Below are positions 3,838-34,927 of a stretch of 35,614 nucleotides of DNA, piece by piece. The position numbers and the translations under genes were made by a program. This stretch comes from a virus. Numbering within the stretch: position 1 is the stretch's first letter; the number at the start of each line of letters is the position of its first letter. The stretch is from IMG/VR virus record IMGVR_UViG_3300031974_005563, positions 1-35,614 of that record; one strand, given 5' to 3'. The notes beneath the pieces were generated by a model. It was given only the letters and a program-made list of their open reading frames with translations. It did no database searches and was not told the DNA's origin.

Positions 3838-3997
3838 GTGCTAAATCCATTTAGTTTTGTATGTAGATTATCTTAATAAAATCAATAAGCTGTGTTTGAT
3901 TATTGATTCGTTTTCAAGCCGGTGCACCCAAAGTTGCTAGATCTGAAATCTATGAGACCTTAATACTTGGTGGCGCAAAACACGCCGAATTTCAATC

Positions 3998-4027
3998 TTG
4001 TAATACTGATGTTTTATACAGTATTAT
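3998..4027 (+). promoter_or_regulatory. LexA-controlled promoter (SOS box in the spacer)
   Basis: TTGTAA (3998-4003), an 18-bp spacer and TATTAT (4022-4027) make a good sigma-70 promoter. The spacer contains a LexA-type box at 4004-4023, with CTG and CAG triplets separated by exactly 10 bp inside a TACTG...CAGTA frame. One half has CTGA where the consensus has CTGT; the other half is perfect (ACAG). LexA bound here would block both promoter boxes. The predicted transcript starts near 4034 and reads into the 70-aa ORF at 4090. Confidence 0.7.
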
Positions 4028-4089
4028 TTTTTGGCCCAGTGAATAAAACAAGCTTTATGCGGAAACCGCTGGGCGAGGAAACCATTGAT

Positions 4090-4302
4090 ATGGAAAATAA
4101 CATCGCATCAATACTTAATGGACTAACGGAATCCCAATATAAGGTGTTCAGGGCTTTGGTTTCGATTCTAGATCCTCAAGTCGATCAGCATAAGTGTCAA
4201 GAAGAGAGGATGCGCCAATTAGATTCTTTTGCCCTATCCGTAGAAGAGCGTCAGTTATACGCTCAACTTCTGCGGGATCTAGCTCAAGAAGTTTCTGGAT
4301 AG
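4090..4302 (+). CDS. 70-aa protein under LexA-type promoter, candidate antirepressor
   Basis: A 70-aa acidic, helical, soluble protein (MENNIASILNGLTESQYKVF at the start, LRDLAQEVSG at the end). The start ATG 4090 has a GCGAGGAA ribosome binding site 9 nt upstream. A longer frame reaching 3967 would begin upstream of the promoter and is not used. No family is recognised. The gene converges on the CI-like repressor and overlaps its 3' end by 155 bp (4148-4302). By analogy with coliphage 186 Tum and small LexA-controlled antirepressors of Salmonella prophages, it may bind and inactivate the repressor on DNA damage. The transcript would also be antisense to the repressor mRNA. Function is inferred from control and position only. 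Confidence 0.55.
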   Translation: MENNIASILNGLTESQYKVFRALVSILDPQVDQHKCQEERMRQLDSFALSVEERQLYAQLLRDLAQEVSG

Positions 4303-4543
4303 AGGCAGAAGCGGCGAGCGAATCCAGCCAGCCAACAGGCTTGCCGCATGACTTTTCAATTTCTCTAGCGGTGTCGTTATTCATGCCGCGCCTTTTTCCG
4401 GTTTTTGAGTCTTTAACGCCATTGATTAACCCGCTTATCTGGCCTTGGCTCTTTCCTGTTTTTTTGGAAAGCTCGGCCTGACCGCCGAGTTCGGCGGCTA
4501 ACTCGCGGAGTCTAATGCGTCTAATTTCATCGATTGTTTTCAT
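4148..4543 (-). CDS. CI-like phage repressor, HTH only, no self-cleavage domain
   Basis: 131 aa. The N-terminal half is a helix-turn-helix domain (about residues 10-70: LRELAAELGGQAELSKKTGK, SQGQISGLING, then DTAREIEKSCGKPVGWLD), the form seen in CI/C2-type phage repressors. The remaining 60 residues are helical (IQKLLELDPAEVERITDALL), probably for dimerisation. The S24/LexA-like peptidase domain of classical CI (about 200-240 aa) is absent, so RecA-stimulated self-cleavage is not expected. It is divergent from the cro-like gene across three operator sites (4552-4630), the normal genetic-switch layout. Its 3' end overlaps the convergent 70-aa ORF. Confidence 0.85.
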   Translation of the reverse strand: MKTIDEIRRIRLRELAAELGGQAELSKKTGKSQGQISGLINGVKDSKTGKRRGMNNDTAREIEKSCGKPVGWLDSLAASASIQKLLELDPAEVERITDALLRIGQKNLIGASSLLDTYADRLEDLESKPKP

Positions 4544-4551
4544 AGGTCTAT

Positions 4552-4572
4552 TAGATAACGAAACGCTAATAA
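4552..4572. promoter_or_regulatory. right operator nearest the repressor gene (OR-like)
   Basis: A 9-3-9 site with a good right half CGCTAATAA, centre AAA and a degenerate left half TAGATAACG. It lies 8 bp from the repressor start codon, where binding would repress the repressor's own transcription, as OR3 does in lambda. The match is good in only one half. Confidence 0.45.
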
Positions 4573-4575
4573 CTT

Positions 4576-4596
4576 AAATCTGCGAAACGCGGTTAC
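4576..4596. promoter_or_regulatory. middle right operator (OR-like)
   Basis: The core GCG-AAA-CGC is perfect with the outer half-sites partly conserved (AAATCTGCG and CGCGGTTAC). Its spacing from the sites on each side (3 bp and 13 bp gaps) supports a tandem array. Confidence 0.45.
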
Positions 4597-4600
4597 TTTA

Positions 4601-4630
4601 TTGACATTCATATTCGCGCAACGCTAATAT
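4601..4630 (+). promoter_or_regulatory. rightward early promoter (PR-like)
   Basis: TTGACA at 4601-4606, an 18-bp spacer and TAATAT at 4625-4630, with a TATAAT three bases further on. The transcript leads to the cro-like gene at 4657, which has a GGAGG ribosome binding site. The operator at 4610-4630 overlaps the spacer and the -10. Confidence 0.7.
4610..4630. promoter_or_regulatory. right operator over the rightward promoter (OR-like)
   Basis: Half-sites ATATTCGCG and CGCTAATAT around CAA, with 8 of 9 positions symmetric. It fills the spacer of the rightward promoter, so it is the site whose occupation would keep lytic genes off. It is the closest counterpart of the left operator at 143-163. 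Confidence 0.7.
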
Positions 4631-5262: not shown

Positions 5263-5346
5263 GGGTTGCTCCGATGAGTGTTATTAAACCGAATTTGGCG
5301 AGGATGGGTAAGTGCCCAATGGGACATGTATAAAAATACAGGGGCG

Positions 5347-10218: not shown

Positions 10219-10329
10219 ATGTCTCGCGCTCGCCTTCCTGTCGGGGTGAATAGAAACTACAAACAACTAATTACAACTAAGTACTTTCTGGGCCTGCATC
10301 CATTGTACTCAAGATTTCATCAATTTTGA
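10219..10329 (+). pseudogene. possible 3'-truncated small gene
   Basis: ATG 10219 opens a 36-codon frame: MSRARLPVGVNRNYKQLITT, KYFLGLHPLYSRF. The start (RLPVGVNRNYK...KYFLG) recalls the first part of AP2-like DNA-binding proteins of phages, which are longer. The frame stops after entering the convergent collagen-like gene. It may be a gene cut off when that gene arrived, or chance. The ribosome binding site is weak. Confidence 0.2.
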
Positions 10330-11188
10330 TCTCTCGTATAATCATGAATCCGGGCTCACCGCGGGAACCTCTCTCTCCATCAATACCTGGATCGCCGGGT
10401 GCTCCGCTCCTTCCGTGGATACCTCGATTGCCGCCACAGTTGCCTGCGCCAGATCCCCCGCGTCCACCCTCGCCACCCTCGCCACCTTTGCCACCTTTGC
10501 CGCCGCTGCCCCCTATACCGGGTTGCGAAGTAAATTTAACGTCAAGTTCAGGTTGAATAGTGGTTTCAAGGAAAAAAATTCTCAGTGTGCCTCCATTTCC
10601 TCCGGCGGCACCATTTGAACCGGGGGCGCCATTTTGGCCTCTTCCTCCGTTGCCTCCATTGCCTGGGCCTCGCATACAAGTGCCGAAAGAGCCGTTTCTA
10701 GCCCCTCGACCACTATAACCCGTTGCGCCTTTGTCGCCGTTTCTTCCATCCGCACCATCGCCCCCATCTTGTGCGCTCATTTCCACGACAGACTTTTCGC
10801 TAATCTTAGATGTAATGTAAATACGGATCTCTCCGCCATCATCTCCAATCGTTCCTAATTGCGCCTTTTGGTGGCTGTAAGGGAACGAGTCAATTTTTGA
10901 GGCATTGTCCTGTCGAAACTCCTGGCAAAAGATCGTTAAAGAATTGCCATTGGTGAGGATCCTACTATTCCGTAATTCTAGTTGCCGTACGGCAATGAAC
11001 AGATGCGAGTTGGCTTGCGGATTAACCGCTCCAATTGTTAGATCTGCGTCGTCGAATATTAGTGTCCCACCTTCGTCTAGCCTTTTTTCAAGTTCCGACA
11101 TTTTTGAGGGAGGTGTGGCCCACGCAGCTGTAATATTTGTGGGAATGTTGTGGGGTTTTACTGCACCGGATAAGATCAAAGTTTCCAT
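10277..11188 (-). CDS. collagen-like Gly-rich repeat protein (cargo gene)
   Basis: 303 aa. Residues about 1-140 form a probable beta domain with no signal peptide (METLILSGAVKPHNIPTNIT; GGTLIFDDADLTIGAVNPQA). From about 145 to 285 there are Gly-X-Y and GGxGG runs (GGDGADGRNGDKGATGYSGR, GGKGGKGGEGGEGGRGGSGA, GSRGEPGF), interrupted by a 25-residue non-repeat segment (LRIFFLETTIQPELDVKFTS). Start ATG 11188 has AAGGAG 7 nt upstream; the ATG at 11215 is only 2 nt from its own Shine-Dalgarno. Leftward, against the direction of all flanking phage genes, so probably expressed in the lysogen. Bacterial collagen-like proteins are often surface or adhesion molecules; the role here is unknown. Confidence 0.75.
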   Translation of the reverse strand: METLILSGAVKPHNIPTNITAAWATPPSKMSELEKRLDEGGTLIFDDADLTIGAVNPQANSHLFIAVRQLELRNSRILTNGNSLTIFCQEFRQDNASKIDSFPYSHQKAQLGTIGDDGGEIRIYITSKISEKSVVEMSAQDGGDGADGRNGDKGATGYSGRGARNGSFGTCMRGPGNGGNGGRGQNGAPGSNGAAGGNGGTLRIFFLETTIQPELDVKFTSQPGIGGSGGKGGKGGEGGEGGRGGSGAGNCGGNRGIHGRSGAPGDPGIDGERGSRGEPGFMIIREIKIDEILSTMDAGPEST

Positions 11189-11300
11189 ACTAAGCTCCTT
11201 ATTTGAGAGAGGCATTTCTCCTCAACGATGAAGACTAGCATAAAAATTCGGTATTCGTTTCGACGTCTTTCAACCTTCATCGAGTTTTCCATAGACAGCA

Positions 11301-34141: not shown

Positions 34142-34927
34142 ATGAGCATTGCTATGAGTGAGAAAGTTGTAAAAATAGCGGACGATTTCTGGAATATTCG
34201 CGGTGAGTTCAAAATTGGTGGCCTGTTAAATATTGGCACCCAAGCATCATTGCTGCGCTGCGCGAGTGGCAAGTATGTGTTGCTAGACGCGTATACGCTA
34301 AATGCTTCCCTCAAAACAGAAGTTGATGCTTTGACTAATAACGGAGCCGATATTGAAGCCATTATTAACTTGCATCCGTTTCACACCGTGCATGTTGCAC
34401 AGATGCATGAGCAGTACCCAAAGGCTCGGCTGTACGGTACCCAGCGGCACCACCAGAAATTTCCAAATTTGCCCTGGCAGCCAGAACTGACTGAGTCAGC
34501 TGAGTGTGCGGCATTGTTTGCTAATGACCTTGAATTCTCTGTTCCCGCTGGGGTCGATTTTATCTCTGATAATGAGCATCTGCATTTTTCATCAGTGCTG
34601 GCGTACCATAAATCGTCTAAAGCGATCCATGTAGATGACACGCTAATGTACCTACCGCTGCCGGGCTTATTGGGAAAATTGAAAAAGCCTGAAGTTAGTT
34701 TTCATATCACACTGGCAAAAACCTTAGAGAAGCGAGCAGGGGCGGCTCGCGATTTTCGCGAGTGGGCAACACGGTTGAGTGAGCGCTGGGCCGACGCAGA
34801 AAATCTCTGTGCGGCGCATTCTGCGCCCTTGCTCGCCGAGCCGAATTCCGCGATTGCCCACAGAATACGTCGAGCATTACAAAAAACTGAAAAGACATTG
34901 CGGGCGCATGAGAAAAAGTACCCTTGA
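34142..34927 (+). CDS. host protein with metallo-beta-lactamase-like fold, metal sites doubtful
   Basis: 261 aa. The pattern of strand, LLDAYTLN, IINLHPFHTVHVAQ, later AYHKSSKAIHVDDTLMYLPL and LCAAHSAPLL follows a metallo-beta-lactamase-like fold. However, the HxHxDH motif is reduced to HPFHTVH, so hydrolase activity is uncertain. ATG 34142 and ATG 34154 are both possible starts; GAGAG precedes the first. It lies beyond the attachment site, so it is chromosomal. Confidence 0.7.
   Translation: MSIAMSEKVVKIADDFWNIRGEFKIGGLLNIGTQASLLRCASGKYVLLDAYTLNASLKTEVDALTNNGADIEAIINLHPFHTVHVAQMHEQYPKARLYGTQRHHQKFPNLPWQPELTESAECAALFANDLEFSVPAGVDFISDNEHLHFSSVLAYHKSSKAIHVDDTLMYLPLPGLLGKLKKPEVSFHITLAKTLEKRAGAARDFREWATRLSERWADAENLCAAHSAPLLAEPNSAIAHRIRRALQKTEKTLRAHEKKYP

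Follow-up and report, generated by a model that had tools for sequence, protein, structure and literature searches.

A candidate LexA-controlled antirepressor gene convergent with a short CI-like repressor gene in the immunity region of a lambda-like prophage

Results and discussion

A putative DNA-damage input in the immunity region

The DNA sequence of 35,614 nt analysed here (IMG/VR record IMGVR_UViG_3300031974_005563, positions 1-35,614; hereafter referred to as the window) contains an immunity region in which an open reading frame of 70 amino acids (aa) is located downstream of a promoter with a LexA-type box and runs convergently into the gene of a 131-aa CI-like repressor. This region probably couples the lysis-lysogeny switch of a lambda-like prophage to DNA damage, with the 70-aa protein serving as a LexA-controlled antirepressor. 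According to the proposed mechanism, the 131-aa repressor would hold three operators shut in the lysogen, and LexA would hold the promoter at positions 3998-4027 shut. Since the repressor is devoid of the S24 peptidase domain, it should not cleave itself. DNA damage would lead to the cleavage of LexA and to the synthesis of the 70-aa protein, which would bind the repressor, with the C-terminal helix and tail of the latter as the probable contact site, and displace it from the operators, so that cro as well as the lytic genes would be expressed. Interference by transcription that runs towards the repressor gene and enters it may contribute.

The original prediction of a TTGTAA-18-TATTAT promoter carrying a LexA-type box in its spacer was borne out by direct reading of the sequence. 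The hexamers TTGTAA (3998-4003) and TATTAT (4022-4027) are separated by 18 nt and match the consensus at nine of 12 positions, a degree of similarity for which about two sites are expected by chance in the region. The box TACTGATGTTTTATACAGTA shows exact TACTG and CAGTA arms and an A/T-rich middle, and the exact pattern TACTG-N10-CAGTA is expected to occur 0.033 times by chance in the window. In the left half-site, CTG is followed by A, a position that is occupied by T in the boxes of E. coli. LexA sites were scored with a position weight matrix (PWM) deduced from 12 LexA boxes of E. coli. The box reached a score of 18.8, compared with 15.1-27.4 for the training sites and 12.5 for the second-best site in the window, and this value was attained by none of 60 Markov-shuffled windows. 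At the level of sequence, these data support the assignment of positions 4004-4023 as a putative LexA-type promoter operator. The second-best LexA-like site (ACATGTATAAAAATACAGGG, 5324-5343) has no obvious position in front of a gene.

The original prediction had also placed a CI-like repressor without the S24 domain on the opposite strand, with an antisense overlap of 155 bp (4148-4302) with the 70-aa frame, and both elements were confirmed. Residues 1-76 of the 131-aa protein match PHROG 12107 (transcriptional repressor) with an E-value of 4.9e-25, and a helix-turn-helix is present, with the HTH_3 match being slightly below the cut-off. No S24 domain was detected by Pfam or PHROGs searches, and no relatives of the C-terminal half were found. 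Three 13-mers are located between the repressor gene and a cro-like gene, around the cro promoter TTGACA-18-TAATAT (4601-4630), and the deduced Cro-like protein matches PF15943 (E-value 2.9e-21) and PF14549 (E-value 5.6e-7). Triplets of the same TAGCG...CGC core occupy the same place next to cro in KS9 and BgManors32. The gp41 protein of KS9 is a demonstrated repressor, the inactivation of which resulted in an obligately lytic KS9 (PMC8310193). Characteristic traits of the PHROG 12107/KS9 gp41 type are present in the window, namely the MK(T/D)IDEIRR DNA-binding half, which is about 45-51% identical to that of gp41, a length typical of repressors without S24, and triple operators of the CGAAACGC type at cro. 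Judged by its family, the adjacent operators and the DNA-binding half shared with gp41, the protein of 131 aa is a genuine repressor of immunity type.

Table 1. Features of the immunity region (positions refer to the window)
Feature	Position	Strand	Basis
Sigma-70-like promoter TTGTAA-18-TATTAT of the 70-aa gene	3998..4027	+	Direct sequence reading
LexA-type (SOS) operator TACTGATGTTTTATACAGTA in the promoter spacer	4004..4023		Best PWM match in the window
Predicted 5' leader hairpin, 8-bp stem, ribosome binding site left free	4034..4074	+	RNA fold; weak
Ribosome binding site GAGGA, 9 nt 5' of ATG	4076..4080	+	Sequence
Candidate antirepressor gene, 70 aa, convergent with the repressor gene	4090..4302	+	Open frame behind promoter and box
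CI-like immunity repressor, 131 aa, without S24 peptidase domain	4148..4543	-	PHROG 12107, HTH_3
Three operator-like 13-mers of the CGAAACGCTAATA type, at 4559, 4583 and 4617	4559..4629		Repeat search
Cro-like gene, YdaS/P22 Cro family, divergent, 76 aa	4657..4887	+	Pfam

The 70-aa frame agrees with its initial description, as the ATG at position 4090 is located 62 nt downstream of the -10 hexamer and is preceded by a GAGGA ribosome binding site (4076-4080). The leader was predicted to fold with -18.1 kcal/mol (z-score -1.9), and no known RNA family was found in the region. The codon score of the frame is barely positive, and 7.5% of synonymous recodings of the repressor gene, with the repressor protein fixed, keep the antisense frame open over 70 codons. 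A single-sequence structure model of the 70-aa protein consists of four helices with a predicted local distance difference test (pLDDT) value of 69 and is poor; PDB and fold searches with this model yielded nothing meaningful. Sequence comparisons with Pfam, NCBIfam, PHROG and PDB chains resulted in no match, with the Gifsy phage antirepressors GfoA and GftA being compared via their families. A hit to PHROG 32347 (E-value 0.019) was treated as chance, since no match was present in any genome searched. A longer reading of 111 aa from the TTG at position 3967 was ruled out, because the promoter would fall inside it.

A recurring layout in KS9-type phages

The layout of the region, comprising a LexA box and a convergent gene that overlaps a short repressor gene, recurs in other phages. 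In KS9, the short repressor gene gp41 faces the convergent gp40 gene with overlapping 3' ends, and TACTGTATGCATGTACAGTA is located directly 5' of gp40. The arrangement of BgManors32 is the same, and Magia and Bcep176 agree with it in the presence of the box, a gp40-like gene and an opposing short repressor. A scan of IMG/VR yielded 80 virus loci with gp40-like genes, 73 of which have a near-perfect LexA box upstream, and the layout with a gp40-like gene was found in more than 70 virus records of the Burkholderia group. The distance from the box to the start of the gp40-like gene is 26-61 bp, with the exception of L130, where the start was misplaced by a shortened frame reading. At essentially all 73 boxed loci, a short protein without S24 overlaps the 3' end of the gp40-like gene by 13-109 bp.

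The 70-aa gene resembles gp40 in being convergent with the repressor gene, in its location close behind a LexA-type box and in overlapping the 3' end of a short repressor gene without S24, whereas the box follows the stop codon of the repressor gene at a distance of about 285 bp in KS9 and of 124 bp in the window. The SH3-like RC(R/K)PGD...DxxLEP protein of the gp40 type is absent from the window: with an hhalign probability of 0.2% and a predicted helical structure, which differs from the beta barrel of gp40, the 70-aa protein was rejected as a gp40 homologue. That KS9-type phages repeatedly show this layout lends strong independent support to the proposed logic of an SOS switch, whereas the binding and inactivation of the repressor by the 70-aa protein, for which no relatives were found and the model is poor, are inferred. 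The position of the 70-aa frame in the same slot as gp40 is a good argument from layout, not from homology, and the candidate antirepressor appears to be new in sequence and position, being analogous and not homologous to gp40. The gp40-like family revealed no convincing match in Pfam, NCBIfam or PHROG, and its predicted fold is an SH3-like beta barrel of good confidence with weak PDB matches. Searches of the open-access literature revealed neither a description of the convergent layout nor a function of gp40. Tandem gp40-like (RCRPGDLARV...) genes are present in early operons of L151 (2501-2773 and 2721-3065) and L152 (2441-2782 and 2775-3056); these are paralogues without LexA boxes or opposing repressors.

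The proteins opposing the gp40-like genes can be assigned to about nine DNA-binding types. Among ten representatives searched against Pfam, a helix-turn-helix was clear or probable in five, with no clear match in the others. The L206 and L185 repressors are 25% identical over the first 65 residues and 78% identical over the last 45, and those of L153 and L165 share 29% identity in the N-terminal part compared with 64% in the C-terminal part. Shared C-terminal tails under dissimilar heads are expected if the tail is the target of the partner protein.

Outside the overlap, the gp40-like genes show ratios of nonsynonymous to synonymous substitution rates (dN/dS) of 0.08-0.23, indicating purifying selection and thus a protein that is maintained and matters there. 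These values bear on the alternative that the LexA-driven transcript acts as an RNA and, by convergent transcription or antisense pairing across the final third of the repressor gene, reduces the synthesis of the repressor after DNA damage, with the 70-aa frame being incidental. The 155-bp antisense overlap in the window, the constant convergent overlap in the relatives (13-109 bp) and the weak coding signal of a frame without homologues would all fit such a role. In the relatives, however, purifying selection acts on the protein product of the convergent gene, and in the window a well-placed ribosome binding site precedes the 70-aa frame. Moreover, stopping new synthesis would not quickly clear the existing repressor, and a frameshift in the antirepressor gene of Gifsy-2 abolished induction, which points to the protein as the active product (PMC3121763). 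An RNA-based mechanism is therefore regarded as unlikely, and an antirepressor protein encoded by the 70-aa frame is preferred.

Association of LexA boxes with short repressors

The DNA-binding half of the window repressor is found in proteins bearing S24 as well as in short ones. Non-identical relatives of this repressor with enough flanking sequence were compared, with a box being defined as a PWM score of at least 15 near the 3' end of the repressor gene and a length of more than 190 aa (S24-length) serving as a proxy for S24. A box was present at 19 of the 32 short repressors, including that of the window, versus none of the 24 repressors of S24-length, which corresponds to a Fisher p-value of 1.2e-6 that is a guide only because the loci are related. 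The best scores near the 3' end are bimodal, ranging from 18.6 to 30.7 in the 19 short repressors and not exceeding 8.2 in all others. At the boxed short repressors other than that of the window, the box precedes a convergent gene of the KS9 gp40-like type that overlaps the 3' end of the repressor gene. Relatives traced via Cro comprised four loci, all without a box. The boxless short repressors without S24 include L043, L044, L055, L038, L067, L002, L006, L008, L010, L092 and L102. Weak CTG-N10-CAG sites are located 5' of the repressor start in L043 (2863) and L044 (2862); they read GCCTGTAAAAATTTTCAGAT and ...GGT, with all ten middle positions being A/T.

The 70-aa gene might instead be a common accessory gene under SOS control that has a different function, for instance as a modulator of RecA or of the SOS response of the host, and is located in the immunity region by chance. 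LexA-controlled DinI-like genes are indeed carried by Gifsy and 186-type phages (PMC3121763), gp40-like genes are also found away from immunity regions, and no homologue links the 70-aa protein to repressors. The slot is nevertheless non-random in the relatives, as it is found opposite repressors without S24 and never opposite those bearing it, and in searches of Pfam and NCBIfam the 70-aa protein matched neither DinI nor any SOS family. Since an accessory role would also leave a repressor without S24 deprived of a known damage input, it is considered improbable, and the assignment of the 70-aa protein as a candidate antirepressor is retained.

Observations weighing against the proposed switch

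Several results weigh against a LexA-controlled antirepressor encoded by the 70-aa frame. Homologues of the protein were not found in phages, plasmids, IMG/VR, GTDB contigs or the nearest genomes, and because no relative is present in any collection searched, the frame is a candidate gene and not a proven one. Since the protein has no homologues and is unrelated to gp40, the recurrence concerns the layout only, not the protein. The shared C-terminal tails of the opposing repressors could be carried along by the physical overlap of the two genes. A few boxless gp40-like copies are located in early operons without an opposing repressor, which rules out an exclusive function of gp40-like proteins as antirepressors. 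Furthermore, a nearby box is missing at 13 of the 32 short repressors belonging to this family; a simple rule by which each short repressor would be accompanied by such a gene is thereby ruled out, and these 13 must use another damage input, located elsewhere or of a different kind.

The remaining points of this kind concern the host. Among 369 gammaproteobacterial genomes sampled, four contain genes that share 54-75% identity with a gene in the right flank of the window, which provides a weak lead to a putative host via one flanking protein. The motif TACTGTN8ACAGTA was not found in these four genomes. Two of them revealed no LexA, and the other two encode LexA-like proteins with 38-39% identity to E. 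coli LexA, the genes of which have no E. coli-type box upstream; the recA genes found in these genomes are likewise devoid of a box. Together with the off-consensus base in the left half-site and a score below those of the KS9-type boxes, these findings would agree with a box that is an inactive relic or the site of another regulator, so that the 70-aa gene would not be under SOS control in this host. Such a non-functional box is very unlikely, since the score of the site at 4004-4023 falls among those of real E. coli boxes, no second site of this kind exists in the 35.6 kb, and other gammaproteobacteria of the sample carry such LexA boxes. In addition, the presumed kinship of the host is deduced from one flanking protein and from draft genomes that appear to be incomplete, with no recA detected in one of them. 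Recognition of the box by a LexA protein of the host is a prediction, and the findings in these four genomes represent the main weakness of the proposed switch.

Comparison with known antirepressor systems

LexA-controlled antirepressors acting on repressors without S24 are established for the Gifsy phages, with GfoA, GftA and GfhA as antirepressors and GfoR, GtgR and GfhR as repressors of Gifsy-1, -2 and -3 (Lemire 2011, PMC3121763). As proposed for the window, a small LexA-controlled protein is combined with a short repressor without a cleavage domain, and Gifsy induction proceeds without repressor cleavage. The comparison with Gifsy made in the original prediction holds for the predicted LexA control and the type of repressor, but the gene position differs: the well-studied Gifsy antirepressor genes are located outside the immunity region (PMC3121763), whereas the gene of the window is alone, inside this region, convergent with and overlapping the repressor gene. 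Moreover, the Gifsy genes have dinI/irsA neighbours, whereas no dinI-like neighbour was recognised beside the 70-aa gene, and a family search revealed no sequence relation between the Gifsy antirepressors and the 70-aa protein.

Tum of coliphage 186 and AntC of N15 are further LexA-controlled antirepressors; Tum binds the repressor and blocks operator binding, has a size of 146 aa, which is nearly twice that of GfoA and GftA, and contains a DinI-like half (PMC3121763). LexA control is predicted for the 70-aa protein as well, whereas no sequence relation to Tum or AntC was found. The traits of the Gifsy/186 Tum/N15 AntC class that are visible in the window sequence are the repressor without S24 (131 aa, helix-turn-helix only) and the LexA box in the promoter. 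The positions of the Tum and AntC genes differ from that of the 70-aa gene. TF-smORF modules with Qtip-like antirepressors resemble the proposed switch in relying on a small protein of the phage for inactivation of the repressor without cleavage, but they are driven by a phage transcription factor and are independent of the SOS response (PMC10432266), whereas the input in the window is predicted to be LexA.

Many temperate phages possess short repressors that do not cleave themselves, and the way in which damage is sensed is usually unknown; the layout described here offers a concrete and searchable answer for a large group of them. KS9 belongs to the group with this layout, and the role of gp40 is thus directly testable in a known phage. 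In addition, two undescribed candidate families of antirepressors, the gp40-like proteins and the 70-aa protein, are on offer. A broader generalisation, which is put forward tentatively as a serious possibility, is that convergent, overlapping and LexA-driven antirepressor genes in the immunity region constitute a widespread cassette, in which one type of repressor would have swapped the S24 domain for a short docking tail and a convergent SOS gene. Unrelated proteins, the SH3-like gp40 and the helical 70-aa protein, would have come to occupy the slot on at least two occasions, and DNA-binding heads would be exchanged over a conserved unit of tail and antirepressor. With such a modular design of head, tail and antirepressor, the specificity of immunity could evolve independently of the sensing of damage.

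Other features of the window

None of the listed frames of positions 1-35,614 was recognised as encoding an integrase, and the left side of the record may be truncated. The right end of the window, from position 34142 onwards, resembles host DNA. Near the left end (306-979), a toxin-antitoxin-like pair is formed by a 122-aa frame and an MqsA-like helix-turn-helix protein of 102 aa (PHROG 2104). A glycine-rich, collagen-like protein of 312 aa, which is probably accessory, is encoded on the minus strand between the replication and lysis genes (10277-11215).
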